Shown: positions 3,662-17,896 of the stretch, piece after piece
Layout: each line of letters begins with the position of its first letter
Position numbering within the stretch: the first letter of the stretch is position 1
DNA from: Faecalibacterium sp. I3-3-33
GTDB taxonomy: Bacteria; Bacillota; Clostridia; Oscillospirales; Ruminococcaceae
Direction of reading: 5' to 3'
DNA: 64,000 bases
Assembly (NCBI RefSeq): GCF_023347295.1
Contig: NZ_CP094469.1
Coordinates: 1,426,001-1,490,000 of the forward strand
The notes under the pieces: generated by a model
Databases searched by the model: none
What the model was told of the DNA's origin: nothing
What the model saw: only the letters and a program-made list of their open reading frames with translations
Translations under genes and position numbers: made by a program

Positions 3662-4179
3662 TTTTCCACTCCTTTATAATACACAGGAATGCCACACACC
3701 ACCCGCACCACGGCGTCTGCCCGGGCGGCAAGGGCGTTGTTCACCCGCGCCAGCGCCAGCAAATAGCGGTCGGTGTCCCCAACATAGTCCGCGCCGCCGC
3801 TGAACACCTCGTTGGAGACAACGATCAAATTTTCGCACTGCGCGGCAAGGGCGTCCAGCCCCTGCAAAATGTGCTCGGCGGCGGCATCACCAGCCCCGGC
3901 GGGGTCGTACAGCTCGTTGGCGGTCAGGTTGCCCAAGTCCTCCAGCAGCGCTGTGCCCCGGCGCGGCAGATGCACAGCATCCAGATACAGCGGGCACTCG
4001 ATGGTCTTAAACTGTTTTGCAGCGCGCATTTTGCGGTGCTTTTCCACCCGGGCAGCGCACTCGGCATCCCACACCTGCATGGTTGCCAGGTAGTACCGCG
4101 GCAAAGCACTGCACAGCACAAGGGCTTCAGCGTATTCGCTTTTGCCGCTGGCAGCACCGCCCAGCACCAGCGTCAGCAT
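3658..4179 (-). CDS. cobU: Bifunctional adenosylcobinamide kinase / adenosylcobinamide-phosphate guanylyltransferase CobU
   Basis: This 173-residue P-loop enzyme phosphorylates adenosylcobinamide and then transfers GMP to it, making the CobS substrate. The start MLTLVLGGAASGKSEYAE carries the CobU P-loop (residues 7-14). The segment RVEKHRKMR aligns with the region of the guanylylated histidine in the Salmonella enzyme, so H48 is the candidate GMP carrier. The C-terminal NEV...RYLLALARVNNALA and CGIPVYYKG segments are typical. Upstream in-frame codons to 4497 belong to cobT in another frame. The ATG at 4179 overlaps the cobT stop by seven bases and gives the family-typical length. Confidence 0.93.
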   Translation of the reverse strand: MLTLVLGGAASGKSEYAEALVLCSALPRYYLATMQVWDAECAARVEKHRKMRAAKQFKTIECPLYLDAVHLPRRGTALLEDLGNLTANELYDPAGAGDAAAEHILQGLDALAAQCENLIVVSNEVFSGGADYVGDTDRYLLALARVNNALAARADAVVRVVCGIPVYYKGVEK

Positions 4180-5246
4180 TGGGGTGTATACGGCGCAATG
4201 CCGCCCTCCGCAAAGGAATAGCACCCCTCGTACACTGCCAGCGCCATGTCCCACAGCGGGATGCTGGCCACTGCGCCGGTACCCTCGCCCAGATGCAGCC
4301 CGGCGGTAAGCAGGGGCGTTTTGCCCAGCGCTTCCAGTACCAGCCGGGCGGCAGGCTCTGTGGAGCAGTGGCTGGCAAACACGGCCTTTGCCGCTGCCGG
4401 GCACAGCCGCACGGCGCCCAGCGCCGCCACCCCGCTGATGAAACCATCCATCAGCACGGGCACACCCGCCAGTGCCCCGCCCAGAAACATCCCGCACAGC
4501 CCGGCGATATCAAAGCCGCCCAGCTTGCTCAGTACGTCCAAGGCGTCATCAGGGTCGGGACTGTTGCAGGCAATGCCCCTGCGGATGGCATCCACCTTGC
4601 GGGTAAGCCCTGCATCGGAAAGCCCCGCACCACGCCCGGTCATAGTCTGCACCGGCTGTGCCAGCAGCACGGCAGCCACGGCGCTGGAGGTGGTAGTGTT
4701 GCCAATGCCCATCTCGCCGGTAGCCACCAGCCCGTAGCCCTCGGCGGCAAGCTGCCGGGTCAGGGCGATGCCCCGGCCAATGGCCTCCACCGCCTCGGCG
4801 CGTGTCATGGCGGGGCCTTTGGTAAAGTCCGCAGTTCCGGCGGCAATGCGGCAGTCCCGCACGCCGGGCACCGGCGCACCGGCAATGCCCATATCCACCG
4901 GCAGCACATCGCAGTGCGCCGCCTGCGCCATCCGGCAGACGCTGGTGCGCCGCGCGGCAAGGTTTTCGGCTACGGTGCGGGTCACGCTCTGGTCGGTCTG
5001 GCTTACGCCCTGCGCCACCACGCCATTGTCCGCGCAGAGCACCGCCACCGCCCGGCGGGAAAAATCAAACTGCGCCGTGCCGGTAAGTGCGGCGGCATCC
5101 TCCAGCATCGTCTCCAGTGCACCCAGCCCGCCCAAGGGTTTGGCAAGGCTTGCCCAGTGGGCATGGGCGGCGGCGCGGGCGGCTTCGTCCGGCGGGGTGA
5201 TGGCAGCAAGCAGCTGCATCAGTTCAGCTTCGGTCATTTTCGTCAT
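4173..5246 (-). CDS. cobT: Nicotinate-nucleotide--dimethylbenzimidazole phosphoribosyltransferase CobT
   Basis: This 357-residue enzyme activates the lower-ligand base by transferring phosphoribose from nicotinate mononucleotide, giving alpha-ribazole phosphate. Seen: the N-terminal KPLGGLGALETM motif, VCADNGVVAQGVSQTDQSVT, the GEMGIGNTTT loop and the C-terminal LHLGEGTGA segment whose glutamate is the family's catalytic base. Two adjacent ATG codons fit. The one at 5246 overlaps the cbiA stop as ATGA and is preferred. No dimethylbenzimidazole synthesis genes are seen nearby, so the base used by this organism cannot be read from the window. Confidence 0.94.
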   Translation of the reverse strand: MTKMTEAELMQLLAAITPPDEAARAAAHAHWASLAKPLGGLGALETMLEDAAALTGTAQFDFSRRAVAVLCADNGVVAQGVSQTDQSVTRTVAENLAARRTSVCRMAQAAHCDVLPVDMGIAGAPVPGVRDCRIAAGTADFTKGPAMTRAEAVEAIGRGIALTRQLAAEGYGLVATGEMGIGNTTTSSAVAAVLLAQPVQTMTGRGAGLSDAGLTRKVDAIRRGIACNSPDPDDALDVLSKLGGFDIAGLCGMFLGGALAGVPVLMDGFISGVAALGAVRLCPAAAKAVFASHCSTEPAARLVLEALGKTPLLTAGLHLGEGTGAVASIPLWDMALAVYEGCYSFAEGGIAPYTPQC

Positions 5247-6583
5247 CCTTTGTGTTTTAAAAAGTGCTGCGCTGCTTGTACAAAGCGGCGGGGCAGGGCA
5301 GTGCCCGCCCAGTAAAGATGCGGGAAACCGGCATACAAATGCGCGTTTGCAAAGCCGCATTTCCACTGCCTTTTTTCGGTTTTGCGCACAGAAAAGTCTG
5401 CGCCATTCTCGGAGGAATCCCAGTGGTGGAATTCATGGATGGGCAGCGCTTCTCCGGTGCGGAAAAGCATACTGTCGGCCTTTGCCGTCATAGCGGCATA
5501 GCCAAAGCGCACCAGCCGCCCGGCGTTGTGCCCGCTGCCCGGCAGCGCACCCGCCATGGGGTAAACCTTGCCGTCCGTGCCCTCCAACGCCTGCCCTAGG
5601 TACAGAAAGCCGCCGCACTCGGCAGCGGTGGGCAGACCCTCTTGCACAGCGTCCCGGATGGCAGCACGCAGGGCGCAGTTCTCGCTCAGCTGCCGGGCGT
5701 ACAGCTCCGGGTAGCCCCCGGGCAGGTACAGCCCGCTGATATTTTCCGGCAGGGCGGCATCCCGCAGCGGGCTGAAAAACACAAGCTCTGCACCCGCGTC
5801 CCGCAAGGCATCCAGCGTTTCGGCGTAGGCAAAGCAGAAGGCTTCATCCTGCGCCACAGCAATGCGGACGGTGGGTGCGCACGGTGCGGCAAGCTGCGGC
5901 GCAGCTGGGGCAGGGCAGTCGGTCAGCGCCGCCAGCTGTGCCCAGTCCAGCACAAGAGCATCAGCTAATCGCCCCAGTTTTTGCTGTAAGTCTACGATCT
6001 CCCCGGCGGTTTTCAGCCCGAGGTGGCGGCTCTCGATGGCGCACCCCGGCAGATGGGGCAGATACCCCACCACCGGCAACCCGGTCTCGGCTTCCAGCAT
6101 CGGCCGCAGCGTTTTGTATAAAGAATCAGAGCAATCATTGAGTAATAGGCCCGCGATATGGCTGGGCGTGCGGAACTGCAAAAGCCCCCGCAGCTCGGCG
6201 GCAAGGGTGATGCTTGCCCCTTTGGGCTGCACCACCAGCAGCACCGGCAGGGCAAGCGTGTCGGCCAGTTCCCATGCACTTGCGCGTGTGGTCAGCCCCT
6301 GCCCATCGTAAAAGCCCATGGCACCCTCGCATACGGCAGCGCCGTGCCCGGTGGCGTAGCGGGCGTAAAGTGTGTGCACCGTATCCGGGGCAGAGAGGTA
6401 GAGATCTAAGTTGTGGCTTTCTACCCCTAGCGCGCTGCGGTGGAACATGGGGTCGATGTAGTCCGGCCCGCACTTGAAGGCACAGGGATCAGCCCCGCGC
6501 CGCTGCAAGGCGGTAAGCACAGCACAGGTAACGGTGGTCTTGCCGCTGCCGGAGCGCGGCGCGGCGATGAGAAACTGCATCAT
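5243..6583 (-). CDS. cbiA: Cobyrinate a,c-diamide synthase CbiA
   Basis: This 446-residue amidase makes the a- and c-amide groups of cobyrinate using glutamine and ATP. The N-terminal dethiobiotin-synthetase-like ATP domain opens with APRSGSGKTT (about residues 8-17), followed by KCGPDYIDPMFH, a CbiA/CobB signature. The C-terminal half is a class I glutamine amidotransferase domain, with the nucleophile cysteine in AAECGGFLYLG and a histidine near FHHWD. The length is standard. It could be called CobB in aerobic nomenclature, but the surrounding cbi genes indicate the anaerobic route. It overlaps cbiET and cobT by four bases each. Confidence 0.94.
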   Translation of the reverse strand: MMQFLIAAPRSGSGKTTVTCAVLTALQRRGADPCAFKCGPDYIDPMFHRSALGVESHNLDLYLSAPDTVHTLYARYATGHGAAVCEGAMGFYDGQGLTTRASAWELADTLALPVLLVVQPKGASITLAAELRGLLQFRTPSHIAGLLLNDCSDSLYKTLRPMLEAETGLPVVGYLPHLPGCAIESRHLGLKTAGEIVDLQQKLGRLADALVLDWAQLAALTDCPAPAAPQLAAPCAPTVRIAVAQDEAFCFAYAETLDALRDAGAELVFFSPLRDAALPENISGLYLPGGYPELYARQLSENCALRAAIRDAVQEGLPTAAECGGFLYLGQALEGTDGKVYPMAGALPGSGHNAGRLVRFGYAAMTAKADSMLFRTGEALPIHEFHHWDSSENGADFSVRKTEKRQWKCGFANAHLYAGFPHLYWAGTALPRRFVQAAQHFLKHKG

Positions 6584-7776
6584 GTCCGTGTCCCCGTAAT
6601 GAGAAACACTGGGTTATTGGCCATCAGCAGGTGCAGACTGCCCGCCGCTTTTGTGCGGCTGACCGCAATCTGGGTCACCTCGGCAGAAAGCCCGTGTGCA
6701 GTCAGAGCAGCCACGGCTGTGCTGAGCGTTTCCAGCGCAATGGCGGCGATGCACAGCTGCGCGTCTGGATTTTTGTGCAGCACAACGTCTATAACGGCGT
6801 CCATATTGCCCTTTGTGCCGCCGATGAATACAGCATCCGGGGCGGGCAGCGCGTCCAATGCTTCGGGTGCTTTGCCCTCGATCAGGGTTAGATTATAAGC
6901 TGCGAATTTCTCCCGGTTTTTCTGGATAAGTATACAGGCCTCCGGGTCGCACTCCACGGCATATACCTGCCCGGCAGGGGCGGCAAGCGCCAGCTCCACG
7001 CTCACGCTGCCGGTGCCCGCGCCCACGTCCCATAGGGTATCCGTGGGGGTAACTGCCAGCTTTGCCAGCGCGGCGGCGCGCACCTCCTGTTTTGTCATAG
7101 GCACAGCGCCCCGGATAAAAGCATCGTCCGGCAGGCCGGGGGTGCGGCGGGGCGGCAAGGCTTCCCGCTCGATGAGTAGCACGCTCAGCGGTGCGAAGCT
7201 TTGCGCTGCCAGCTCCCGGGCAAGGCCAAACCGGATGGTTTCCACCGGCGTGCCAAGGTTTTCGCCCACAAGGGCGTGGGCAGCGCCCAGCCCGGAGGCG
7301 GTCAGCTTGGCGCACAGCGTGGCAGGGCTATCCCCGCCGCCGGTGAGGAAAAACACCTGCGGATGCGTCAAAACCTCAGCCACCGGGTCGCAGGTACGGC
7401 CATGTGCCGACACCAGTTTCCAGTCCTGCCAAGGGCGTCCCACAGCGGCGGCTAAAAGCTGCACACTGGAAAGCCCGGGCAGCACCCGGACAGAGTATCC
7501 CATAGCCCGCAGCAGGGGTAACAGCTTTGCCGCACCGGAGTAAAACCCGGTGTCGCCGCTGTACAAAACAGCGGTGTCGGTATCTGGCTGTGCGGCAAGA
7601 CAGGCAAGAATTTCCTCGGATTTATACACGGCTTTGCAGTTATCAGTGCACCCCACCGGTAAATGCTCCAGCAGGCGCTTTGCCCCAAGAATGAGCCCTG
7701 CGCCTTGCAGCGCAGCCAGCCCCTGTGCGGTCAGGTTTTCCGGGCAGCCGGAGCCCATTCCGATCAGAGAGATCAT
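6580..7776 (-). CDS. cbiET: Fused cobalt-precorrin-7 C5-methyltransferase / cobalt-precorrin-6B C15-methyltransferase (decarboxylating) CbiET
   Basis: This 398-residue protein combines two enzymes that are separate in Salmonella. Residues 1 to about 200 form a tetrapyrrole methylase domain (ISLIGMGSGCPENLT, then YSGDTGFYSG). Residues about 205-398 form a Rossmann SAM methyltransferase domain with the SAM-binding loop LWDVGAGTGSVSVELA and the acidic VYAVECDPEA strand. Together they methylate C5 and C15 and decarboxylate the C12 acetate. The fusion is common (CobL-type), so it is not novel. It lies between cbiJ and cbiA with ATGA overlaps on both sides. Confidence 0.93.
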   Translation of the reverse strand: MISLIGMGSGCPENLTAQGLAALQGAGLILGAKRLLEHLPVGCTDNCKAVYKSEEILACLAAQPDTDTAVLYSGDTGFYSGAAKLLPLLRAMGYSVRVLPGLSSVQLLAAAVGRPWQDWKLVSAHGRTCDPVAEVLTHPQVFFLTGGGDSPATLCAKLTASGLGAAHALVGENLGTPVETIRFGLARELAAQSFAPLSVLLIEREALPPRRTPGLPDDAFIRGAVPMTKQEVRAAALAKLAVTPTDTLWDVGAGTGSVSVELALAAPAGQVYAVECDPEACILIQKNREKFAAYNLTLIEGKAPEALDALPAPDAVFIGGTKGNMDAVIDVVLHKNPDAQLCIAAIALETLSTAVAALTAHGLSAEVTQIAVSRTKAAGSLHLLMANNPVFLITGTRT

Positions 7777-8510
7777 ACCAGAACCTCCTTGCAGCGTGCC
7801 AGAATTTGTGCAGCAGTTTGTCCGTTTTCAGCCGGGCGGCGCACCACGATCAGCTGTGCGCCGGTGTCCTGCGCGGCCTGTGCCTTTTCGGCAAAGCCGC
7901 CCACAGCACCGCCGTCCTTTGTGACTAGATACCGGATGGAGAATTGCTTCATCAGGGCGCAGTTCAGCGCATAACTGAAAGGCCCCTGCATGGCAATGAT
8001 ATTCTTGTGCGGAATACCAGCAGCCTCGCAGGCGGCAATGCCTTCCCGCGTGGGCAGCACCCGGGGAAATAGCCGCTCCGGGCCGAGTGCCGCAAAAGCG
8101 GCAAGCTCTTTCGCACCGGTGGCCAGCAGCACATTGCCACGGCATCCGGCCAGAAACGCGGCGGCGTGGGCAGCGGTGGCAAACACCATGCTCCCGGCAG
8201 GCAGCGGGCTTTCTGCCCGCAGCAGCCGGTGGTATTCCACTCTGGCTGCTGCACACGCTGCCCGGATGTTTTTGGTGGCGTCCACCGCGTAGGGGTGGGT
8301 GGCGTCCACGCACAAGGCAGCGCCCTGCAAAAGGGCGGCCATTTCTTCGGTGGTCAGCCGCCCGCAGTGCACGGTGATGCCGTCCGCTTCGCCCTGCTCC
8401 TCCGCACCCAGCGGAGTGGCTACGCTGACCAGCACCTCTGCGCCCAGCGCAGCCAGCTGCCGGGAGAACACCCGTCCCTCGGTCGTGCCGCTGAAAACCA
8501 CTGCCTTCAT
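7773..8510 (-). CDS. cbiJ: Cobalt-precorrin-6A reductase CbiJ/CobK
   Basis: This 245-residue NAD(P)H-dependent reductase reduces the corrin ring at the precorrin-6A stage. Seen: the N-terminal dinucleotide-binding VVFSGTTEGR, the VDATHPYAVDATKN motif characteristic of CobK/CbiJ, LLATGAKEL, and MQGPFSYALN with VTKDGG near the C-terminus. The track of in-frame codons extends to 8822, but the ATG at 8510 overlaps the cbiH stop (ATGA) and gives the normal family length. Its neighbours supply the step before (methyltransferases) and after (CbiET). Confidence 0.93.
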   Translation of the reverse strand: MKAVVFSGTTEGRVFSRQLAALGAEVLVSVATPLGAEEQGEADGITVHCGRLTTEEMAALLQGAALCVDATHPYAVDATKNIRAACAAARVEYHRLLRAESPLPAGSMVFATAAHAAAFLAGCRGNVLLATGAKELAAFAALGPERLFPRVLPTREGIAACEAAGIPHKNIIAMQGPFSYALNCALMKQFSIRYLVTKDGGAVGGFAEKAQAAQDTGAQLIVVRRPAENGQTAAQILARCKEVLV

Positions 8511-9274
8511 CTGCGGTACCCCCGCGGGGTGACCATTCTGCTGCCCAGCTGCTTTGTGGCGGCGTTGCCGATGTACACGGTGGTAAACATATCTGCCGCA
8601 GTGCGTTCCAGCTGCGCAAGGGTCAGGACGCGGGCGGTCTGCCCCTCCCGGCCGATGTTGCGCACGATGCCGCAGACGGTATCGGCGCTTTTGCCGTTTT
8701 CCAGCAGGATGCGCACCGCCTTTGCCAGATAGTCCGGCCTGCCTTTGGAGGATGGATTGTACAGCGCAACGCAGAAATCCCCCATGGCGGCACAGGCCAG
8801 CCTCTTTTCGATGACCTCCCACGGGGTCAGCCGGTCGGAAAGGGAAATGACGCAGAAATCGTGCGCCAGCGGCGCGCCCAGTACCGCCCCGCCGCTGAGG
8901 GCAGCGGTCAGTCCGGGTACGACTTCCACGGCAACGTCCGGGTAGTCCGGGGCCAACTCCAGCAGGGGACTTGCCATGCCGTACACCCCGGCATCGCCGG
9001 AGCAGACCAGCGCCACCCGCTTGCCGGTGCGTGCTTTTTCCAGCGCCCAGCGGCAGCGGTCAAGCTCCTGCGTCATGCCGGTGGCATAGTATTCCTCGCA
9101 GGGGAATTCATCGCGGATGAGGTCAAGATAGACCTTATACCCGCAGATAGCGTCAACGCTTTCCAGTGTGTTCGCAGCCTGCTGGGTCATATAAAAAGGC
9201 TCGCCGGGGCCAATCCCCACGACATAAACTACCTTCTCAGGACGGTCGATGTCAATTTCCATCACGTCAATCAT
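8507..9274 (-). CDS. cbiH: Cobalt-factor III / precorrin-3B C17-methyltransferase CbiH/CobJ
   Basis: This 255-residue tetrapyrrole methylase uses SAM to methylate C17 with ring contraction. The core begins at VVYVVGIGPGEPFYMT (about residues 15-30), and the second SAM motif is LVCSGDAGVYGMA. The segment YNPSSKGRPDYL is typical of the CobJ/CbiH branch. The chosen ATG at 9274 overlaps the cbiG stop by eight bases. A further in-frame ATG four codons later is possible. The length agrees with single-domain CbiH, and no ferredoxin-like extension is seen. Confidence 0.92.
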   Translation of the reverse strand: MIDVMEIDIDRPEKVVYVVGIGPGEPFYMTQQAANTLESVDAICGYKVYLDLIRDEFPCEEYYATGMTQELDRCRWALEKARTGKRVALVCSGDAGVYGMASPLLELAPDYPDVAVEVVPGLTAALSGGAVLGAPLAHDFCVISLSDRLTPWEVIEKRLACAAMGDFCVALYNPSSKGRPDYLAKAVRILLENGKSADTVCGIVRNIGREGQTARVLTLAQLERTAADMFTTVYIGNAATKQLGSRMVTPRGYRR

Positions 9275-10265
9275 TCTGCCACCTCCAGTCCGGGGCAAAG
9301 GGCCTGCATGCCAGCGCAAAGGTCACGCCGTTGCAGGCAAATTTCGGGTAAAATAAGCTGCCGTCTGCGTCCAGTACCGCCGCCCGTTCGCAGACGTTAT
9401 CCACCCCGGTCACGCTCTTTACAAAAGGGGAGGGGGTGAACTGCCCGGGCACACTGCACAGCTGTGCGGCAGAGTAAAAACGCACCGGCCAGCCGTGCGC
9501 CTGACAAAAGGCCAGCAAGCCCGGTTCGTTCTTCTTCAGGTCGATGCTTGCAGCGGCGGTAACTGCCTGCGCAGCAAAGCCGTACCGGGCGCAGAAGGCA
9601 GCAAAGGCAGCATCCAGTGTGTCAGCGCTAGTGCCCCGCTTGCAGCCGATGCCCAGCACCCCGATACGCGGCACAAGATGCAGTGCCTGCCCGGTGGGGC
9701 AAAGGGTGAGTGCAAAGTCGGCTTTTTCCTGGGTATCAGCGGGGAATAACCCTGCGGGCACAGTGCCTGTTACCGGGATATCAGTCCGGTAATGTACCGG
9801 CTGTCCGGCCAGTAATTTGCCGCTGACCAGCTTGATGCGCCCCGGCTCCAGCACTATGCAGTTTTGGTGCTTTGCCCACTCGTCCACCGCAAAAATGCCG
9901 TGGGCATCGGTGGCGGTGGTGATCACCGGCACCGCACCGCATACAGCAGCAATGGCCCGCGCCAGATCGTTCGCGCCGCCCAGATGCCCGGACAAAATGG
10001 GCACGGCAAACCGCCCGCATTCATCCACCACCACCACAGCCGGGTCGGTGGTCTTGCTCTTGCAGTGGGGCGCGATAGCCCGCACTGCAATGCCCGCTGC
10101 GCCTACAAATATCAGTGCATCCGACTGCACAAACTGCGTGCTTGTCCATTCGGCAAGAGAAGCGCCATCCTGCCCGCACCGGGCAACGCTGCCGGGCAGG
10201 GCATCGGCAAGGCGTTTTGCCAGCGCAAGACCGGTATCCGTAAAGGCAAGGTAGGCGCGGGTCAT
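9267..10265 (-). CDS. cbiG: Cobalt-precorrin-5A hydrolase CbiG
   Basis: This 332-residue enzyme opens the delta-lactone of cobalt-precorrin-5A and releases acetaldehyde, a step specific to the anaerobic pathway. Seen: the N-terminal domain with DALIFVGAAGIAVRAIAP, VVVVDECGRFAVPILSGHLGGAN and VITTATDAHG, all CbiG signatures, and a C-terminal domain with GIGCKRGTSAD and SIDLKKNEPGL. The order of domains and the length are normal. It overlaps cbiF and cbiH. Its presence is one of the clearest signs that cobalt is inserted early here. Confidence 0.94.
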   Translation of the reverse strand: MTRAYLAFTDTGLALAKRLADALPGSVARCGQDGASLAEWTSTQFVQSDALIFVGAAGIAVRAIAPHCKSKTTDPAVVVVDECGRFAVPILSGHLGGANDLARAIAAVCGAVPVITTATDAHGIFAVDEWAKHQNCIVLEPGRIKLVSGKLLAGQPVHYRTDIPVTGTVPAGLFPADTQEKADFALTLCPTGQALHLVPRIGVLGIGCKRGTSADTLDAAFAAFCARYGFAAQAVTAAASIDLKKNEPGLLAFCQAHGWPVRFYSAAQLCSVPGQFTPSPFVKSVTGVDNVCERAAVLDADGSLFYPKFACNGVTFALACRPFAPDWRWQND

Positions 10266-11026
10266 ACCGGCTCTCCTTTGCGGAACTCGGTGGTAAAGGC
10301 AGGGTCATACAGCTTGCTCCGCTCGTACTGCGTGCCGAGAAAATCTCCCACCACGATAAGCGCCGTCTTGGTAATGCCCGCTGCGCGGGTGCTCTCAGCT
10401 AAAGAACCGACCGTGCACCGTACGATTTTTTCTTCCGGCCAGCTGGCCTTGTACACTACGGCAGCGGGGGTGTCCGGTGTGTACGCACCCTGCAAAAGCG
10501 CTGCCTGCACCTTATCGATCAGCCCGATGGACAGGAAAATCACCATGGTCGCGCCGTGTGCGGCAAGGCTTGCCAGCCTTTCCCGCTCCGGTACCGGGGT
10601 GCGTCCCTCCATGCGGGTGATGATGACCGTCTGGCTGACCGTTGGCAGGGTGTACTCGGCGTTCAGCGCGGCGGCAGCGCCGCAAAAACTGGAAACACCG
10701 GGGGTATCATCGTAACAAATACCGTCTGCATCCAGCGCATCCATCTGTTCCCGGATCGCACCGTACAGGCAGGGGTCGCCGGTGTGCAGACGCACGGTGG
10801 TTTTGCCGGCGGCTTCCATCCGGCGCATCACGTCCAGCACCTGTTCCAGTGTCATCTCGGCGCTGTTATAGATAGTACAGCCGGGCTTTGCCAGCCCAAG
10901 CAGCGCCGGGTTGACCAGACTGCCTGCATAAATAATGCAGTCTGCGGCCTGTAAAAATGCTGCGCCGCGCTGGGTGATTAGATCCGGTGCGCCGGGCCCG
11001 GCGCCCACAAAATGTACCATGTGCAT
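10262..11026 (-). CDS. cbiF: Cobalt-precorrin-4 C11-methyltransferase CbiF/CobM
   Basis: This 254-residue tetrapyrrole methylase adds the C11 methyl group. It starts MHMVHFVGAGPGAPDLIT, the SAM-binding loop of the family, followed by YAGSLVNPALL, RLHTGDPCLYGAIREQM and TPGVSSFCGAAAAL, which together distinguish CbiF/CobM from CbiH and CbiE. In-frame codons continue upstream to 11254, but these run inside the ABC-CbiD gene. The ATG at 11026 shares its A with the TAA stop of that gene (TAATG), a one-base overlap that supports coupled translation. Confidence 0.94.
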   Translation of the reverse strand: MHMVHFVGAGPGAPDLITQRGAAFLQAADCIIYAGSLVNPALLGLAKPGCTIYNSAEMTLEQVLDVMRRMEAAGKTTVRLHTGDPCLYGAIREQMDALDADGICYDDTPGVSSFCGAAAALNAEYTLPTVSQTVIITRMEGRTPVPERERLASLAAHGATMVIFLSIGLIDKVQAALLQGAYTPDTPAAVVYKASWPEEKIVRCTVGSLAESTRAAGITKTALIVVGDFLGTQYERSKLYDPAFTTEFRKGEPV

Positions 11027-12939
11027 TACTCCTTCCATTCGTCTAACAGGCGGGCGGCAGTCTCGGTCTGTCCCAGCGGGCCGTGCTGGTTTGAAAACAG
11101 CACCGCGCCCACCCGGAACGCCCCGCCCGCGCGGCGGTCGAGATGCAGCTGGATGGCGGCAAGCAGGCTTTGCAGCACCGGCTCCCGCAGCCCGGCAGCA
11201 TCCAGAATTTCCAGACAGGCATCCGTGGTGGCTGCATTGTACAGCGCGGTGCAAACCTCCCGGTCAGCACCGCACAGGGCGGCGTGGGTGCAAAACAGCT
11301 CCGTGCGGCAATCTGCCGTGTGGGAGTGGGTGTTCATAATGCCGCCTGCCAGCTTGCACAGCTTGCCGACATGTCCCACCAGCAGCACCTGCTCAAAGTG
11401 TGCCGCTGCTGCCATATCCAGCGTATCTCCGATAAAGTTGGATGTCTTGACCACCGGGATATCAGCAAACTGCGGGTAGGCTTCGTGCAGATAGTCCAGC
11501 CCGTAGTTGCCCGGGGCAAGAATGAGCCGCCGGTGGTCGTTTGCCCGCAGCGCCGCCTGATTCATCTCCAGCTGGATGGTATCCAGAATGGCCTGCTGGC
11601 TCATAGGCTCCACGATACCGCTGGTGCCCAGCACCGACAGCCCGCCCTCCACCCCGATATGCGGGTTGAAGGTGCGCCGAGCCACCTCCTCGCCGCCGGG
11701 GATGGAGATGGTCACGGCAAAACCGCCGGGATAACAGGCGGCTTCTGCCTCCCGGCGTAGCGCCTCGGTGATCATCTGCCGGGGCACATGGTTGATGGCG
11801 GCTTGCCCGACCGGCTGGTCCAGCCCGGGCTTTGTCACCCGGCCAACCCCTGCACCGCCGGTAATGCGCACCTCCGGCGTGCCGGGCAGCAACATCACCG
11901 TGGCGGTCACCGGCAGACCGGTGGTCACGTCCACATCGTCGCCGCCGTCCTTTTCAATGGCGCATTCCGCGCCATCGGCAGCGGTGCGGCAGAACAGGGG
12001 AGCCACCTCCACCACGATGCCTTTTGGCGTGCGCAGAGCGACTGTTTCCGGCGCAGTGCCGGTCAGCAGCAGCCGGGCAGCCCCGGCAGCGGCCAGCGCC
12101 GCGCAGGTGCCGGTGGTGTAGCCGCAGCGCAGCAGCTTTTGCCCGCTGCGCACATAGTGCTCAAATTGGGGCTTTTCCGGCTTTGGTGGGCCAAAAACAG
12201 CGCTGTACTGTTCCTCGGTCAGGCCGTAGAGCGCTTTGATATTTTCCCGGGCAAAGGCCTGCGCCGGGGGCATGGGGGCGGAGACGCCGTGCGGCGAAAC
12301 GCAAACTACCGCGTCCGCGATCTTCTGTGCCATGTCCAGCTCGTGCAGGGTGACGATGACCGCAAGCTGCTGCTCATGCGCCAGTTTTTGCAGGATAGTC
12401 AGCAGCTCTATCTTGCCTTTTACATCTAAAAATGACGTGGGCTCATCCAGCAAAAGCACCTGCGGCTGCTGACAGACTGCCCGCGCCAGCAAAATGCGCT
12501 GCCGCTGCCCGTCGCTGACGCAGTTGAAGTCGCGGTCGGCCAGATGCGCCGCGCCCACCAGCTCCAGCGCGCTCTGTACCTGTTTTTTGTCCTCGGCAGA
12601 AAGGATGCCCAGCCGCCCGGTGTAGGGAATGCGCCCTGCCGCCGCAAACTCAAAGCAAGTAGTCAGCTCGGTGCGGCGGGTGTGGGGCAGCATCAGCGCC
12701 AGTTTTTGCGCCCGTGCGTTGCCGGGGATGCGGGCAAGCTCCTGCCCGTCCAGCAGTACTGCGCCGCCTAAAGGGGAAAGTTGCCCGGCCAAGGTCTTGA
12801 GCAGGGTGGATTTGCCCGCGCCGTTCGGGCCGATGAGCGCTAGTACCTGCCCTTTTGCAGCGCCCAGCGCGATATCCCGCGCAAGGGCAGCTTTGCCGTA
12901 GCCGATGGCAAGGGCATTGGTTTCAACGGAGTTTTTCAT
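11026..12939 (-). CDS. cbiD: Fusion of BtuD/FecE-type ABC ATPase with cobalt-precorrin-5B C1-methyltransferase CbiD
   Basis: One uninterrupted reading frame of 637 residues encodes two unrelated proteins. Residues 1 to about 240 are an ABC ATPase of the iron-chelate/B12 importer type: Walker A GPNGAGKS (37-44), signature VSDGQRQR and Walker B VLLLDEPTSFLD, then a switch histidine in VTLHELD. From about residue 270 the sequence is CbiD: FEHYVRSGQKLLRCGYTTGTC looks like a normal CbiD start without its methionine, followed by GGDDVDVTTGLPV and a complete C-terminal methyltransferase domain. No internal stop or obvious frame change is seen at the seam. The permease gene lies directly upstream and cbiF downstream. 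The ATPase half presumably energises the BtuC/BtuF-like partners, while the CbiD half works in corrin synthesis. Confidence 0.93.
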   Translation of the reverse strand: MKNSVETNALAIGYGKAALARDIALGAAKGQVLALIGPNGAGKSTLLKTLAGQLSPLGGAVLLDGQELARIPGNARAQKLALMLPHTRRTELTTCFEFAAAGRIPYTGRLGILSAEDKKQVQSALELVGAAHLADRDFNCVSDGQRQRILLARAVCQQPQVLLLDEPTSFLDVKGKIELLTILQKLAHEQQLAVIVTLHELDMAQKIADAVVCVSPHGVSAPMPPAQAFARENIKALYGLTEEQYSAVFGPPKPEKPQFEHYVRSGQKLLRCGYTTGTCAALAAAGAARLLLTGTAPETVALRTPKGIVVEVAPLFCRTAADGAECAIEKDGGDDVDVTTGLPVTATVMLLPGTPEVRITGGAGVGRVTKPGLDQPVGQAAINHVPRQMITEALRREAEAACYPGGFAVTISIPGGEEVARRTFNPHIGVEGGLSVLGTSGIVEPMSQQAILDTIQLEMNQAALRANDHRRLILAPGNYGLDYLHEAYPQFADIPVVKTSNFIGDTLDMAAAAHFEQVLLVGHVGKLCKLAGGIMNTHSHTADCRTELFCTHAALCGADREVCTALYNAATTDACLEILDAAGLREPVLQSLLAAIQLHLDRRAGGAFRVGAVLFSNQHGPLGQTETAARLLDEWKE

Positions 12940-13952
12940 CGCACACCCTCCCGGTTGCGGCGCAGCAACAGCCCAATGACCACCGGTGCACCAAATACAG
13001 CGGTGACCGCGCTGATGGAAAGCTCCATGGGCGCAAACAGGCTGCGGGCGATCAGATCACACAGCAGGCAGAACGCCGCCCCGCCCAGGCAGCACCCGGG
13101 CAGCACATACAGCGGGCGGGCGCTGCCCAGCAGCTGCTTGACAAGGTGCGGCACCGCGATGCCCACAAAGGAGATGGGCCCCGCAAAGGCGGTAACACAG
13201 GCGGCCAGCAAACTGGAAAGCAGCACCAGCAGGCGGGAGAAACGCCGCACATCCACGCCCACGCTGCGGGCGTAGGCTTCACCCATCTGGTAAGCTGCCA
13301 TGGGCTTTGCAAGGCAGAAAGCCGCCGCCAGCGCGGGCAGCACCACCAGTGCCGCCGTGCGCACGTTGCCCCACGTCATGCCGGAAAAGCTGCCCTGCGA
13401 CCAGTTGTGCAGGTTGACGATGCTGCTATCCTGCGCAAAGGCCACCACAAACTCGGTGATGGCAGAGCAGATGTAACCGATCATCACGCCGCATATTACA
13501 AGGATGCTCATGCGCTGCACCCGGCGGGCAGCAGCCAGCACAAAGGCCATAGCTGCCATAGCGCCCGCAAAGGCTGCAAGGATCAGCACGGCAGAGCTGG
13601 TCAGCAGACCGTAGTTCAAAAAAAGCACCATCACCAACGCCACCGCCAGCTTTGCTCCGCTGGAAATGCCCATGACAAAGGGGCCGGCAATGGGGTTGGC
13701 AAAAAAGGTCTGCAACAAGTAGCCTGCCGCCGAAAGTGCAGCGCCCAGCAACGCGGCCATCACCGCGCGGGGCAGGCGCAGCTGGGTGATGATGCCTACG
13801 CTCAGCGCGTCCTGTCCGCGGCCGGTCAGGGCGGCAAGCACAGCCTGCGGGGTAAGTGCAACGCTGCCCCAGAACAGGCTTACGGCAAATAGCACCGCCA
13901 GCAGCAGGGCAAGGCAGCAGTAAGATAAAACAAGGCGTTTGCGGCTGGTCAT
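12936..13952 (-). CDS. FecCD/BtuC-family ABC importer permease
   Basis: This 338-residue protein has about nine to ten hydrophobic helices and matches the FecCD permease family, which imports iron chelates, haem or cobamides. Recognisable segments are QLRLPRAVMAALLGAALSAAGYLLQTFFANPIAGPFVMG near the N-terminus (read here only as the well-known RLPR...GAAL...G..LQ...NPLA pattern) and the C-terminal GPISFVGIAVPHLVKQL. The start at 13952 overlaps nothing and sits ten bases after the binding-protein gene. Its stop overlaps the ABC-CbiD start. Position under a cobalamin riboswitch makes a corrinoid the likeliest cargo, but iron-chelate uptake cannot be excluded from sequence alone. Confidence 0.88.
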   Translation of the reverse strand: MTSRKRLVLSYCCLALLLAVLFAVSLFWGSVALTPQAVLAALTGRGQDALSVGIITQLRLPRAVMAALLGAALSAAGYLLQTFFANPIAGPFVMGISSGAKLAVALVMVLFLNYGLLTSSAVLILAAFAGAMAAMAFVLAAARRVQRMSILVICGVMIGYICSAITEFVVAFAQDSSIVNLHNWSQGSFSGMTWGNVRTAALVVLPALAAAFCLAKPMAAYQMGEAYARSVGVDVRRFSRLLVLLSSLLAACVTAFAGPISFVGIAVPHLVKQLLGSARPLYVLPGCCLGGAAFCLLCDLIARSLFAPMELSISAVTAVFGAPVVIGLLLRRNREGVR

Positions 13953-13962
13953 AAGCGGCTCC

Positions 13963-15105
13963 TCAGGTGATCTTAGTCAAAAAATGCAGGGTGTCGGGGT
14001 CGGCAGTCTCTCCGGTAAAAACGGCATGGAGATCCAGCATAAAATCTGCCAGCGCCATGCTCTGCTGGAAGAAGCTGGGTGTGGTGCACCAGATGTCCCC
14101 ATTTTGCACCGCCTTGCACTCTGCCAGCAACGCGCAGCGGGCAAGCAGTTCTTCCTTGGTGGAGATCGTGCCCTCGATGGTGCCGTTATAGATGAGCACA
14201 TCGGCGTCCTTGATCCCGGCGTAAAGATCCTCCAATGGGATATTCATCGTAGAAAGATTGTTGCCACTGTCGGCAAGGTCTGCAAAAACATATTCGCCCC
14301 CGGCCATGCCGATCATCTGCGCCACATAGTCTCCACTTTTGCGCACGGTGGCAAGGCCGCTGGAAGTAATGGAGAAAAACGCGCAGCGTTTGCCGGTAGA
14401 GGGTTGCTTCAGCAGCGGCGCAATGCGCTGCGCCTGCCGGGCGAACACTTCCTCGGCAAGGGTTTCTTTGCCCAGCAAGATGCCATACAGCTTGATCCAT
14501 TCCATTCGCGCCAGCGGGCTGCTCTCGTAGCTGGAACGCTCTACCAGCACCGGAATGCCGAACCGCTCCAGCTGTTCCTTCACTTCCGGGGTGTGGTAGA
14601 TCATGGTGTTTTCCACCGCAAGGCCGCATTCTGCGGTCAGGATGCGCTCATAGTCCGGGGCGCTGTACTTGCCCGCGTAGGCGATGCGCCCGGACTGCAT
14701 GGCCTGCTTGGCCTCGTCCAGATACCAGCCCTCGGCGCGTGTGCCGGAAAGGGCAATGCTGTCCAGCGCGTCCAGATGGAGAAATAAGTCCATGGCAGAG
14801 GTGGACACCAGATAGATGTTCTGCACCGGCTGCTGCAAAACAGTCACGCCCTCTGGTACGGTGCGCAGAGTGGCGGCGCCCTCCGGCCGGACAAGGAACT
14901 TTGCCTGTGTGTCCGGGATGGTCAGCAGGGTAGAGCCGTCCGCATAACAGTCAGCGGTGAACTGGGTGGCGTAGTCCAGCGGATAGGCGTGGTCGAACAC
15001 CAGCTCGTCCGTATCAGCTGGTGCAGTGGGCGCGGCAGCGCAGCCTGCAAGCACCAGTGTTGCGGCGGGCAGTGCCTTTAAAAATTGAGCGCGGGTCAGC
15101 TTCAT
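13963..15105 (-). CDS. BtuF/FepB-type solute-binding lipoprotein
   Basis: This 380-residue lipoprotein has a lipobox LVLAGC with Cys22, so it should be anchored on the outer face of the membrane. The mature part follows the helical-backbone binding-protein fold of FepB/BtuF proteins, with segments such as GEYVFADLADSG and DADVLIYNGTIEG. It would deliver corrinoid or another metal chelate to the FecCD permease directly downstream. Only ten bases separate the two genes. An Arg in the signal (TRAQFLKALPAA) gives it a somewhat Tat-like look, but no twin arginine is present. Substrate specificity is inferred from the riboswitch-controlled setting. Confidence 0.85.
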   Translation of the reverse strand: MKLTRAQFLKALPAATLVLAGCAAAPTAPADTDELVFDHAYPLDYATQFTADCYADGSTLLTIPDTQAKFLVRPEGAATLRTVPEGVTVLQQPVQNIYLVSTSAMDLFLHLDALDSIALSGTRAEGWYLDEAKQAMQSGRIAYAGKYSAPDYERILTAECGLAVENTMIYHTPEVKEQLERFGIPVLVERSSYESSPLARMEWIKLYGILLGKETLAEEVFARQAQRIAPLLKQPSTGKRCAFFSITSSGLATVRKSGDYVAQMIGMAGGEYVFADLADSGNNLSTMNIPLEDLYAGIKDADVLIYNGTIEGTISTKEELLARCALLAECKAVQNGDIWCTTPSFFQQSMALADFMLDLHAVFTGETADPDTLHFLTKIT

Positions 15106-15111: not shown

Positions 15112-15954
15112 TTACTCCAAGGTAAAGGTCAGGGTGTATTCGATCTCGTGGGGCTTGCTCATGGCTACGGTGTCGGCGGTAACAGCCAGCGGGGTGCCCA
15201 GAGCGGCTACGGGAATTTCAAAGGTAGAGTTGCCCTCGGTGTTGGTGGGCAGATACTTCTCGCCGTCCACGATCATGTAGTCGTAGTTGGGGCTGCTCCA
15301 CACGATGGTAGCGGTCATCTTACCGTCTGCCACGGTCAGAGCAGCAGGGCTTTCCACGGTAGCGCGGCCGGAGCCGCCCTCCAGCACCACGGCGGCGGTG
15401 TATGCACCATCTGCGGGGGTCTCGGCGGCCTGTTCCGTCTTAGGCTCGGCATTGCGCACGCTGACGATATGGTCGTACCACTTGCCCTTGGTGCCCAGCA
15501 ATGCCAGCTGGAAGTCAGTGTCCAGCGCTTCCACCGGGATGTCGTAGCCGTACACCTCCTCGGTGGTGCCGTCTGCGTAGGTAACGGTGTCCACGGTGGG
15601 GATGAGCCACGCGGTCTTGTTGGCCTCGGCATCGGCGGCAAGGCCGGGGTAGAGGTTCACGATCTTTTTGGAAGCCAGACTGACGTGGAAGGTCATCACG
15701 CCGTTTTCCACGGTCAAAGTACCCTTTCCGTTGCAGGCCTCGCTGGTGTGGAACATACTGCTGTCGGTCTCAAAATCAGCGGCGTATACGCCATCCGGCA
15801 GGGCAGCCTCTGCCACAGCAGAGGAAACCGCTACAGAAGAAGCAACAGAGCTTGCCGCAGCGGAGGAGGCGGGAGCAGCCCCGCCGCAGCCTGCCAGAGA
15901 AGCAGCCAGCACCACACCGGCCAGAGAAACGATGATAAACTGTTTGCAGCGCAT
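15112..15954 (-). CDS. Lipoprotein with two related beta-rich domains, cobamide-operon associated
   Basis: This 280-residue protein is not confidently recognised. It has a lipoprotein signal (VLAASLAGC, Cys23), a serine/alanine-rich spacer to about residue 48, then two similar domains. Domain 1 contains LTVENGVMTFHVSLASKKIV and later YDIPVEALDTDF. Domain 2 contains LTVADGKMTATIVWSSPNYD and later FEIPVAALGTPL, so an internal duplication is visible. The alternating hydrophobic pattern and the DG(V/A)Y starts suggest compact beta-sandwich domains; NEAT-like haem or chelate binding is one possibility but is inference. It sits between cbiK and the BtuF-like gene, six bases from the latter. The ATG at 15954 was chosen because the signal peptide starts there; the longer ORF upstream crosses a terminator. 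Confidence 0.72.
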   Translation of the reverse strand: MRCKQFIIVSLAGVVLAASLAGCGGAAPASSAAASSVASSVAVSSAVAEAALPDGVYAADFETDSSMFHTSEACNGKGTLTVENGVMTFHVSLASKKIVNLYPGLAADAEANKTAWLIPTVDTVTYADGTTEEVYGYDIPVEALDTDFQLALLGTKGKWYDHIVSVRNAEPKTEQAAETPADGAYTAAVVLEGGSGRATVESPAALTVADGKMTATIVWSSPNYDYMIVDGEKYLPTNTEGNSTFEIPVAALGTPLAVTADTVAMSKPHEIEYTLTFTLE

Positions 15955-16097: not shown

Positions 16098-17333
16098 TTA
16101 GCCGTTCAGAAGATCCATAGCGGCCTTGGTATGTGCAATGTACAGCTGCTGGATATCCGCAATGCGGCCCAGACCGGAGATCTGGCAGTCCACATTTTCA
16201 AAGCAGCCTGCGGCGGTAAACTGGCTCAGCCAGCTGTCGGCGTCCTCACCAGCCATGTCGTTGTTGGCGTGGTCGCCTGCTACCACCATCAGCGGGCGCA
16301 GGATGACCTTGGTGTAACCGGCAGCCTTCACGGCCTCGATGACGGCCTCGCAGGAGGTGTCCTCGGGCTCGCCCTCCACCGTGCCGATGAATACGTTGTC
16401 GTAGCCCAAGGTCTGCATGGTGGTCTGCATCTGGCTGTAACTCACCTTGGCGGTGTGGCTAGTGCCGTGACCCATAAAGACGAAAGCAGTCTTATCGGCA
16501 GCGGCAGCAGCGGCGCTGTCGTAACCGGCTTCCTTCACAGCGGCAGCGGTAACGGCCTTGGCAACAGCTTCCTTGTCTGCATTGATGACGGAAGCATCTG
16601 CGCCGACCTCGCCCAGCAGGGGCTCGGCCACAGCGATGCTCTCAAACTTATCGCGGTACTGGTCCAGCATCTCGTTCATCTCGTCGTACTCGGCACCGTG
16701 CATCAGATGGGTGGGCTGCACGATCAGGTTCTTCACGCCGTTTGCCACAGCGCGGTCCAGTGCCTGCTGCATATTGTCGATCTTTTCGCCATCGCGTGCC
16801 TGCACATGGTTGATGATGATCTGTGCGGTAAAGGCGCGGCGCACGCTCCAGTCGGGGTAAGCGGCCTGCAAAGCGTCCTCAATGCCCTTGATGTCAGCAG
16901 CGCGGCTGTCGTTGAAGGAGGTGCCGAAGGACACCACCAGCAGCTCGTTCTCGCCGATCTCATCGGCGTTGCGGGCATCGTCCTTGGAAGCATCGCCGGT
17001 GTCGCGGCCAAAGTAGTCGGGGTCGGCGTTCTCGCCCTCCACCAGCTCCTTCTGGGCATCGGTCAAAGCGTCCCAAGCGGCCTTTGCGGCTTCGCACTGG
17101 GCGTCGGTGTCGTCGGTGCGCTGCTGTACATAGATGGCATCGATCAGGTCTGCCACGTTCTGTGCAGCCAGTGCGTCAGCGTCTGCGCCGGAAGCTTCGC
17201 TGCTGGCGGCAGAACTGGCAGCAACAGAGGAAGCCGTGCTGGAGGCAGCCCCGCCGCAGCCGGTCAGTACACCGGCGCACAGAGCCAGAGCGGTCAGAGC
17301 GGCCGCCGTTTTGCGGATGTTGCGTTTTCTCAT
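16098..17333 (-). CDS. cbiK: Lipoprotein-anchored sirohydrochlorin cobaltochelatase CbiK
   Basis: CbiK inserts cobalt into sirohydrochlorin, the entry step of anaerobic corrin synthesis. This 411-residue version starts with a lipoprotein signal (LCAGVLTGC, Cys26), a Ser/Ala linker and an extra helical segment ending in ALTDAQKELVEGENADPDYFG. The chelatase domain begins near residue 125 (LLVVSFGTSFNDSR). It keeps the metal-binding histidine motifs QPTHLMHGAEYDEM and FMGHGTSHTA. An exported CbiK is known in Desulfovibrio; here the anchor implies a location outside the membrane, which is odd for a cytoplasmic pathway. AGGAAAGGAAAA precedes the ATG at 17333. It is the first gene after the riboswitch. 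Confidence 0.9.
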   Translation of the reverse strand: MRKRNIRKTAAALTALALCAGVLTGCGGAASSTASSVAASSAASSEASGADADALAAQNVADLIDAIYVQQRTDDTDAQCEAAKAAWDALTDAQKELVEGENADPDYFGRDTGDASKDDARNADEIGENELLVVSFGTSFNDSRAADIKGIEDALQAAYPDWSVRRAFTAQIIINHVQARDGEKIDNMQQALDRAVANGVKNLIVQPTHLMHGAEYDEMNEMLDQYRDKFESIAVAEPLLGEVGADASVINADKEAVAKAVTAAAVKEAGYDSAAAAAADKTAFVFMGHGTSHTAKVSYSQMQTTMQTLGYDNVFIGTVEGEPEDTSCEAVIEAVKAAGYTKVILRPLMVVAGDHANNDMAGEDADSWLSQFTAAGCFENVDCQISGLGRIADIQQLYIAHTKAAMDLLNG

Positions 17334-17613: not shown

Positions 17614-17676
17614 TCTTACAGGCTTTTTGGTACAACCAATTCCTCGTGATCTGGGACGGCAAAGCCCCGGTACCAA

Positions 17677-17873
17677 CAGCGGGCAGGTTTCCTGACTGAA
17701 AGTTCAACGCCCGCTGCCGCCTTCCCAAGCCGGATGGCTCAGTGACCGGTGCGAAAGCACCCTGACAGTGGACTCCCTTATCACAGTGACGAGATCGTGC
17801 GGGATTTGCACCCGCTTCCCTTTTAACATTCCTGCCGCCGCCCGGTGGGGCAAAGTGACGGAACGCACCTGCT
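17677..17873 (-). promoter_or_regulatory. Cobalamin riboswitch (AdoCbl class)
   Basis: Read on the minus strand, the segment contains the ordered conserved blocks of the cobalamin aptamer: GTTAAAAGGGAAGC, GGGTGCAAATCCC, a GTCACTG box near CCGGTCACTGAGCC, then GGGAAGG and finally CAGTCAGGAAACCTGCC. It starts a few bases after the promoter at 17897-17925. By family knowledge, bound adenosylcobalamin would turn the downstream genes off, which fits the cobamide synthesis and uptake operon that follows. Confidence 0.93.
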
Positions 17874-17896
17874 GTTTTCTGTTCAGTTCGTCAAAA

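Follow-up and report, generated by a model that had tools for sequence, protein, structure and literature searches.

The window, that is, the whole stretch of 64,000 nucleotides analysed here, carries an uptake cassette headed by a cobalamin riboswitch and, behind it, a corrin operon (Table 1). The order in the cassette is riboswitch, lipoprotein CbiK, NEAT-like lipoprotein, binding protein, BtuC-like permease, and ATPase, and the ATPase shares one open frame with CbiD. The initial annotation had placed permease and binding-protein genes directly upstream of this frame, and they are indeed there: the permease gene and the ATPase start share 4 bases, and the gene for the binding protein comes next. 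There is no cbiL between the fused gene and cbiF. Two further genes of the pathway, cbiP and cbiC, are located just left of the window.

Table 1. Features of the cassette and the corrin operon, with positions in the window
Feature	Coordinates	Strand	Basis
Cobalamin riboswitch heading the operon	17665..17887	-	RF00174, 101 bits (gathering 31.5)
CbiK with lipoprotein signal (LTGC lipobox by pattern)	16098..17333	-	PF06180, 244 bits (cut-off 26.2)
NEAT-like (lipo)protein, used as cassette marker	15112..15954	-	PF05031, 24.2 bits, below cut-off 32.8
Substrate-binding protein (Peripla_BP_2)	13963..15105	-	PF01497, 95.1 bits
FecCD/BtuC-like permease	12936..13952	-	PF01032, 264.5 bits
Fused frame, ABC importer ATPase and CbiD, 637 aa	11026..12939	-	Open frame, ATG start, Pfam/TIGR matches
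ATPase half, residues 1-241	12217..12939	-	Pfam ABC_tran, motifs, fold matches
Linker, residues 242-258 (boundary is our own cut), EEQYSAVFGPPKPEKPQ	12166..12216	-	pLDDT dip, comparison of loci
CbiD half, residues 259-637 and stop	11026..12165	-	TIGR00312, conserved columns, fold matches
cbiF; start ATG and the stop of the fused gene have one base in common (TAATG)	10262..11026	-	TIGR01465, sequence
cbiG, cbiH, cbiJ, cbiET, cbiA, cobT (rest of ring operon)	4173..10265	-	Profile matches
cobU, cobS, cbiB, cobD	3..4200	-	Profile matches

Profile searches show a full ABC ATPase and a full CbiD on the 637-aa chain, joined by a short linker; this bears out the in-frame fusion proposed in the initial annotation. 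A search for the same architecture in other Faecalibacterium genomes found it in nine of the 25 genomes of the genus, the window's own included, with no internal stops; the window's genome and four other fusion-bearing genomes of the genus are single-contig assemblies. Two genomes of a neighbouring genus (g71) also carry the fusion, giving 11 fused genomes, whose proteins are 75-97% identical to that of the window. In precomputed domain assignments, 119 of the 120 top database matches listed carry both Pfam domains. Because the same open fusion recurs in the nine genus genomes and in these 119 proteins, a frame or assembly error is excluded, and the one-chain ATPase-CbiD fusion is a confirmed observation. 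Some candidate variants were examined at the same time. A triple fusion of permease, ATPase, and CbiD in G006 and G011 (open frames of 994-997 aa) was rejected, since the permease lies in another frame. A fusion in Lachnospiraceae SIG280 (L081) was also rejected: the match spans 7-633, yet the ATPase and CbiD occupy two distinct, adjacent frames. Two longer fusions with extra ABC sequence (P0001 and P0082) are single sequences, each on one contig.

The ATPase half matches Pfam ABC_tran at residues 22-169 (107.6 bits, cut-off 25). The motifs read in the initial annotation, namely Walker A, the signature (SDGQRQR), Walker B, and the switch His, are conserved in all 11 fused rows aligned. The Q-loop Gln is missing at its aligned column, where all 11 fused rows have Pro followed by His, all five unfused cassette ATPases have Thr followed by Asp or Glu, and the six other ATPases aligned have Gln. 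By structure comparison, the fold of this half resembles HmuV, BhuV, CbiO, and BtuD, and the heme importers HmuV and BhuV are the closest. The corrinoid-ATPase model NF007082 gives the fusion 170.3 bits, below its equivalog cut-off of 537, and none of the ATPase models among the 25 models listed reaches its cut-off. The fused protein aligns to this model of 402 positions only as far as position 237. Three unfused cassette ATPases extend the alignment to 349, 355, and 356 by way of an additional C-terminal domain, and NF007082 is their best model at 213-244 bits, again below 537. All five unfused cassette ATPases examined have this other C-terminal domain at the place of CbiD. It matches no Pfam family in the four proteins scanned, and an alpha/beta fold is predicted for it from a five-row alignment; structure comparison of an unfused ATPase was dominated by the ATPase part and barely probed the extra domain.

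The CbiD half is, by family membership, a predicted cobalt-precorrin-5B C1-methyltransferase. It matches the full profile of Pfam CbiD (PF01888) at residues 270-533 (301.3 bits, cut-off 25) and exceeds the cut-off of TIGR00312 (402.1 bits against 200), and it scores 294.1 bits with a second equivalog, NF000849, under the cut-off of 348. Of 80 columns that are near-invariant in 29 stand-alone CbiD rows, 76 are retained in each of the 11 fused rows, and the fold matches include the CbiD structure 1sr8. The seam FEHYVRSGQKLLRCGYTTGT looks like a stand-alone CbiD N-terminus, as had been noted initially: among the 15 of 21 relatives listed, several begin with M-A-FEHYIRSGQKMLRCGYTTGT and others with VAFEHY, MPPFEHY, MALDYY, MSFDH, or MFEHY. 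In a CbiD tree of 36 selected rows (G016 is among those left out), the 11 fused proteins form one clade with a support of 100/100 that contains no unfused member. Comparison with relatives thus indicates a single origin of the fusion. Purifying selection acts on both halves (dN/dS in eight pairs: ATPase half, 0.035-0.183; CbiD half, 0.057-0.203).

The upstream cassette resembles known importers without matching their equivalog models. The permease scores best of 16 models with BtuC (NF003001) at 208.8 bits, where the cut-off is 334, and none of the 16 reaches its cut-off. CbiK scores 191.1 bits with the equivalog NF047852, under the cut-off of 400. In alignments, the lipoprotein CbiK has His motifs, which we take to be catalytic. 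Each of the 11 fused genomes has one CbiK with a lipobox, as judged by a sequence pattern and not by a signal-peptide predictor; in the window's genome, the exported CbiK is the sole CbiK match. No lipobox is seen in the 276-aa frame of L179 (G014, where only the CbiK end matched), and CbiK of L081 does not match the pattern. The NEAT-like protein gene also occurs in the cassette of other genomes. In one unfused genome (G001), the cassette and the CbiD operon are separate operons, and each has a cobalamin riboswitch of its own; riboswitch scans of relatives covered eight of 14 loci and then eight of 12 later loci.

Early genes of tetrapyrrole synthesis appear to be missing. Neither HemB nor HemC was found in any of 28 genomes, and CobA, CbiL, CbiX, and CobN were not found in the genome of the window. 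Its four TP methylases are CbiF, CbiH, CbiE (by position), and RsmI, with no CobA among them. CobN was found in none of the 28 genomes, and the 10 CbiX matches in these genomes all lie inside CbiK genes; CbiX or CobN as a backup for CbiK was dropped, the candidates being only cross-matches on CbiK genes. With HemB, HemC, and, in the window's genome, CobA absent, the cells appear unable to start tetrapyrrole synthesis themselves. The later pathway is largely retained: the ring enzymes other than cbiL are present in the window's genome, including CbiP, and CbiC is present in all 28 genomes. At E <= 1e-20, cbiL was not found in this genome and six other fused genomes, and it is kept in four of the 11.

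With the NEAT-like gene as the marker, the cassette was sought in 396 genomes of the family and was present in 50, of which 46 have CbiD and four have no CbiD match at the threshold. Of the CbiD genomes, 8 of 46 with the marker have hemB, versus 37 of 65 without it, a link whose Fisher value (3e-5) is overstated by the relatedness of the genomes; it gives p 0.02 after a genus-by-state collapse and a median p of 0.005 with one genome per genus (1000 draws). In the whole family, hemB is found in 45 of 111 CbiD genomes (66 lack it) versus 27 of 285 others. A table row for F. prausnitzii in PMC8123684 was ambiguous and was set aside.

From the fusion and its context, we infer the substrate of the importer and a possible channelling. 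Since the cells appear unable to begin tetrapyrrole synthesis, the starting ring may be imported. The riboswitch, the lipoprotein CbiK, the absent front end, and CbiD in place of a C-terminal domain point to precursor import. We give a probability of about one half to the reading in which the fused chain powers an importer that supplies ring synthesis with a ready-made tetrapyrrole and keeps CbiD tethered where the ring enters. The initial annotation had proposed corrinoid or metal-chelate uptake; its importer ATPase and its fusion stand, while the context points beyond uptake of these compounds alone. One polypeptide would unite the ATPase of a type II ABC importer with the C1-methyltransferase CbiD. 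It may have arisen when a riboswitch-led uptake cassette was placed ahead of a corrin operon, the ATPase lost its own C-terminal domain, and the N-terminus of CbiD was joined in frame via a flexible linker. As genes for uroporphyrinogen III and precorrin-2 appear to be lacking in the host, the importer would most likely bring in a tetrapyrrole at the level of sirohydrochlorin or later, which CbiH, F, G, D, J, E/T, C, A, and P would turn into corrin. The exported CbiK may insert cobalt before import. With two motor subunits in each transporter, two CbiD domains would sit at the channel's inner mouth, and tethering would fix the ratio of CbiD to transporter and hold the ring pathway close to where the substrate enters. 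A direct hand-over is not obvious, because CbiD acts in the middle of the pathway and not on the likely imported substrate. Several observations count against this reading: the unfused G001 has a cassette of this kind as well, four of the 11 fused genomes keep cbiL, the Q-loop Gln is off its aligned place, 9 of the 50 genomes with the NEAT marker keep hemB (eight with CbiD and one without), four of the 50 have no CbiD match at the threshold, and family-wide hemB goes with CbiD.

Other readings start from the seam. The linker is 16-30 aa long, varies in length and sequence among 13 fused loci, and is rich in Pro, Lys, Ala, and Glu. Structure prediction gives two confident domains and a weak, flexible linker, with the mean pLDDT falling to 61 at residues 251-260, and the relative placement of the domains is not confidently predicted (pTM 0.51). 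A flexible linker of this composition would suit a precursor that is cut into two proteins, a reading that we consider improbable; by eye, the 13 linkers share no cleavage motif. Two proteins could also arise by internal initiation near residue 260, which the initial annotation had raised together with a frame error. In the window's genome, a GTG is located four codons into the seam; 12 of the 13 loci have an ATG or GTG 36-44 codons ahead of the seam, and in G020 AAGGAG precedes a GTG at -11. The seam GTG, however, occurs in only four of the 13 loci, where it lacks a ribosome site, and the 13 share no start codon at the seam that is preceded by such a site. The upstream codon lies inside ATPase sequence and has no consistent ribosome site in these loci. 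With the same open fusion in 11 genomes and the 119 database proteins, both an error and an internal start are very unlikely explanations.

The fusion could instead be neutral: the ATPase stop was lost beside cbiD, and the halves work independently with no special role for the tether. The variable linker and the low confidence in the predicted placement of the domains agree with this, as does the recurrent gene order in relatives, with a transport ATPase gene close to cbiK and cbiD. The fused clade without unfused members in the 36-row tree argues against it, and the join removed a domain that is found in the five unfused cassette ATPases examined; we regard neutrality as possible, if rather unlikely. 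Much the same weight goes to a conventional transporter that takes up finished corrinoids (or heme or cobalt), with another uptake route supplying the missing front end. NEAT domains usually bind heme, and the closest folds of the ATPase half are heme importers; the cobalamin riboswitch fits as well, and so does the corrinoid ATPase model as the best, below-cut-off match of the three unfused ATPases. A plain B12 importer, however, should also serve genomes without ring synthesis, whereas 46 of the 50 marker-bearing genomes have CbiD, and the head of the cassette is a lipoprotein CbiK with its presumably catalytic His motifs.

Precursor import with a tethered CbiD allows a bolder extension, which we hold to be doubtful: Faecalibacterium would build corrin from a borrowed macrocycle, with uptake and mid-pathway B12 synthesis forming one membrane-bound machine. 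Surface CbiK would put cobalt into an isobacteriochlorin from neighbours (factor II, or factor III where cbiL is missing). The NEAT-like and binding lipoproteins would pass the ring to the importer, and ATPase-CbiD would hold the ring-building enzymes at the inner gate.

The locus shares parts with several known systems. Type II importers of the BtuCDF/FecBCDE type (ATPases BtuD, FecE, and HmuV) have in common with it the ATPase domain, the FecCD permease, the Peripla_BP_2 protein, and the cobalamin riboswitch. It differs from them in the CbiD fused to the ATPase, the displaced Q-loop Gln, and ATPase and permease scores below the cut-offs of the ATPase and permease models listed. The corrinoid ATPase of NF007082 has an extra C-terminal part into which the match of three unfused cassette ATPases extends, where the fused protein has CbiD instead. 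Desulfovibrio vulgaris has a periplasmic CbiK, likewise an exported chelatase of the CbiK family; here, the chelatase is a lipoprotein, belongs to an importer cassette led by a riboswitch, and is the only CbiK match in the genome. CbiMNQO is a cobalt ECF transporter. A transport ATPase gene of undefined class preceding cbiK and cbiD in several relatives is reminiscent of it, but CbiMNQO belongs to a different transporter class and consists of separate proteins. Cobalt transport near cbi operons is described in the accessible part of PMC7689651. In-frame joining is also seen in CbiET of this operon, in the CobBC model NF053748, and in cbiFGH of Akkermansia (PMC6974653, available portion); these fusions pair two enzymes, whereas the present one couples a transport motor to an enzyme. 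A BtuD-CbiZ fusion, considered as a precedent, was set aside as no supporting open-licence paper was found. The accessible sections of the open-licence literature searched gave no description of a transport motor combined with a corrin enzyme.

According to the available parts of PMC6461909 and PMC6593275, some bacteria, many of them host-associated, are predicted to make B12 only from external early tetrapyrroles, and the transporters for B12 and its precursors are an open problem in gut genomes. These precursor salvagers, or precorrin-2 auxotrophs, resemble the present case in keeping ring synthesis while early tetrapyrrole genes are missing. They differ in that those parts name no precursor transporter, whereas here there are a candidate importer, a CbiD fusion, and an absence of cbiL as well. 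Salvagers in PMC6461909, as far as its accessible text goes, would have complete corrin ring synthesis, whereas cbiL was not found in the window's genome at E <= 1e-20. Within the open-licence literature searched, the fusion appears to be a new protein architecture, with a transport motor and a corrin enzyme in one chain, in a common human gut bacterium. The locus provides a named candidate for a precursor importer in the major gut genus Faecalibacterium, with a riboswitch, a putative surface chelatase, and a physical tie to the pathway that it may feed.

The initial annotation read an ABC importer ATPase and CbiD as one chain, with a seam resembling a CbiD N-terminus without its Met, and both points hold. 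The gene is a single open frame carrying both Pfam domains: ABC_tran matches residues 22-169, and residues 270-533 cover the whole CbiD profile. Stand-alone CbiD of several relatives starts M-A-FEHY, and the fused CbiD runs on from FEHY. The protein passes the CbiD model TIGR00312 (402, cut-off 200) and stays below the cut-off of a second one, NF000849 (294, cut-off 348); no ATPase model reached its cut-off among the 25 models shown of 193. The AlphaFold2 model (51-row alignment; mean pLDDT 90.6, pTM 0.51) contains two confident domains whose relative placement is unreliable, and residues 251-260 dip to a mean pLDDT of 61. The fold comparison matched the heme importer ATPases HmuV and BhuV, CbiO and BtuD, and CbiD 1sr8 for the second half. 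One database source names such a fused protein siderophore ATPase YusV and another CbiD, each name describing one half.

Features of the fused operon and of related loci
Feature	Location	Strand	Remark
Fused ATPase-CbiD frame	window 11026-12939	-	637 aa, ATG to stop
Stretch with the aligned Q-loop place	window 12217-12939	-	Pro then His
Cobalamin riboswitch of fused operon	window 17665-17887		
Putative ABC pair	window 17940-20314	+	divergent from riboswitch operon
G001 cassette operon	L128		CbiK-NEAT-BP-permease-ATPase
G001 ring operon	L117		CbiD + ring genes
Extra part of unfused ATPase	L128:8750-9098		
T-box leader	L117:12189-12445		near ring operon
T-box leader	L111:12595-12862		near ring operon
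NEAT-like gene in two pieces	L199:8421-9397		intervening gap
NEAT-like gene in two pieces	L200:4751-5727		intervening gap

Both halves are maintained: across eight pairs, the ATPase half has a dN/dS of 0.035-0.183 and the CbiD half one of 0.057-0.203. An alignment of 11 fused rows, which includes ATCC 27768 and CNCM I-4541 and leaves out G393 and G424 of a neighbouring genus, shows four ATPase motifs conserved: Walker A, signature, Walker B and switch His. All 11 rows also keep 76 of the 80 columns that are near-invariant in 29 stand-alone CbiDs. Three of the other four show mild changes (A to G, L to I or M, I to V); the fourth, P414 to Glu or Lys in some fused rows, is not mild. The Q-loop glutamine is missing at its aligned place, where 11/11 fused rows have Pro then His; the same column holds Thr then Asp or Glu in 5/5 unfused cassette ATPases (L128, L129, L130, L121, L081). 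The cassette ATPase signature is SDGQ.

The linker is variable, at 16-30 aa. Two separate proteins from internal initiation near residue 260, which the initial annotation considered, are not supported by the loci compared. GTG encodes the seam Val in only four of 13 loci, which are closely related; the remaining nine use GTC or ATC. In 12 of the 13 there is an ATG or GTG 36-44 codons ahead of the seam, within ATPase sequence, with no consistent ribosome site; G020 alone has AAGGAG ahead of a GTG at -11. Internal initiation is therefore not conserved at sequence level.

The same architecture recurs in the genus. Both halves share a single frame, free of internal stops, in 9 of 25 genus genomes, the window's included (41 genomes searched); CbiD stands alone in 10, and no CbiD-covering match was listed for 6. 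At E <= 1e-85, 111 of 396 family genomes gave a match, five of them across both halves: three in the genus and two (G393, G424) in the neighbouring genus g71. Among named-species genomes (80 loci kept of 228 confirmed), both halves were matched in 8, seven of them (L031-L037) titled Faecalibacterium; L081, the eighth, was rejected because its halves are separate frames. In a protein search, both Pfam domains occur in 119 of the best 120 proteins listed. Two database proteins, P0001 and P0082 (821 and 957 aa), carry extra ABC sequence ahead of CbiD, each known from a single sequence and a single contig. All 11 fused proteins form one clade (support 100/100) in a CbiD tree built from 36 selected rows, which shows a single origin of the fusion. 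With midpoint rooting, G393 and G424 branch as the sister group of the other nine, so the fusion is older than the split of these lineages or was transferred between them.

In the unfused relative G001, two operons each have their own cobalamin riboswitch; in the fused lineage, cassette and CbiD/ring genes are joined in one operon. Five unfused cassette ATPases, 360-372 aa from match start, carry about 110 aa beyond the ATPase domain (L128, L129, L130, L121, L081). An alpha/beta fold is predicted for this extra C-terminal domain, and no Pfam family matched it in the four scanned. In three, its match to the corrinoid-ATPase model NF007082 extends to positions 349-356. The fused ATPase reaches only position 237, and CbiD therefore occupies that domain's former place. 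T-box leaders lie near the ring operon of unfused relatives. At L129 (G019) and L130 (G010), from two genomes of the genus, the transporter lies beside cbiA, cbiC, cbiJ and cobT, with no CbiK or CbiD match listed.

The cassette was surveyed at 12 hand-chosen loci, out of 50 NEAT-bearing genomes, in ten other family genera. CbiK, the NEAT-like lipoprotein and the binding protein (BP) were present in all 12; within the stretches read, 11 loci showed the permease and 10 the ATPase. Six of eight loci scanned had a cobalamin riboswitch; none was found at L192 and L193. A lipoprotein pattern marks CbiK at all 12 loci and in G001, G031 and all 11 fused genomes. It was not seen in the short CbiK frame of L179 (G014), nor in the short CbiK of unfused relatives, judged from the six of 12 that the search for this frame picked up. 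The NEAT-like gene was matched as two pieces at L199, L200 and in G310. The putative ABC pair in the window consists of an ATPase-like frame with a visible Walker A and a long hydrophobic frame.

The front end of the pathway appears to be absent. HemB and HemC models matched in 0/28 genomes and in 11/14 controls; HemB was detected in 72/396 family genomes. The TP methylases of the window's genome are CbiF, CbiH, CbiE (by position) and RsmI, without CobA or CbiL. CbiL (E <= 1e-20) was not found in 7 of 11 fused genomes, this one among them; these retain the remaining ring genes. It is present in the other 4, in 10/10 unfused CbiD-bearing genus genomes and in five other unfused CbiD genomes searched, and was likewise not found in G010 and G019, which lack CbiD. 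Judged by eye, the tree calls for two or more losses, or a regain. In the window, the CbiD stop overlaps the CbiF start, with no space for cbiL. Every fused genome carries a single CbiK match, which is the exported CbiK; all ten matches to CbiX, considered as a further chelatase, fall within CbiK genes, and CobN was found in 0/28 genomes. The window's genome has the remaining ring and loop enzymes, namely CbiF, G, H, J, ET, A, CobT, CobU, CbiC, CbiP, CobD, CbiB and CobS, with CobS and CobU under their cut-offs. With the first half missing and the second intact, an imported ring is needed unless unrecognised enzymes bridge the gap.

Published work divides salvagers of tetrapyrrole precursors into five types (PMC6461909); a precorrin-2 type at 0.6% is quoted from it in PMC8123684. 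The term precorrin-2 auxotroph was suggested for species left unexplained by a B12 analysis, and the same paper calls transporters of B12 and its precursors an open problem (PMC6593275). The main text of a metabolic-fusion survey (PMC4921024) does not mention CbiD, and the portions of open-licence literature searched gave no description of the ATPase-CbiD fusion or the cassette.

If the cassette were a plain B12 importer, it would be expected in genomes lacking ring synthesis as well. With the NEAT-like gene as cassette marker, 50 of 396 family genomes were positive and 46 of these had CbiD, which counts for precursor import. Among the 111 CbiD genomes, hemB occurs in 8/46 with the marker versus 37/65 without (Fisher 3e-5; genus-by-state collapse p 0.02; one genome per genus, median p 0.005). 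Against precursor import, nine marker genomes keep hemB, eight of them with CbiD; four marker genomes gave no CbiD match; and in general hemB is commoner with CbiD (45/111 vs 27/285 other family genomes). The link is a tendency rather than a rule.

Under precursor import, the molecule would be a ring at the level of sirohydrochlorin or, in genomes lacking cbiL, factor III. It may be loaded with cobalt by the exported CbiK, and two fused motors would place two CbiD domains at the inner gate. Because CbiD acts in mid-pathway, the channel is unlikely to hand the ring straight to it; more probable roles are holding the ring enzymes close to the point of entry, or simple co-supply. That the tether has no function is a serious rival. 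The initial interpretation, an uptake motor tied to a biosynthetic enzyme, is partly supported and extended: the fusion is real and sits in a riboswitch-led importer operon, and the import reading and the missing front end are added. At roughly one chance in five, uptake of a borrowed, CbiK-loaded ring by the importer and mid-pathway B12 synthesis may form one membrane-bound machine.
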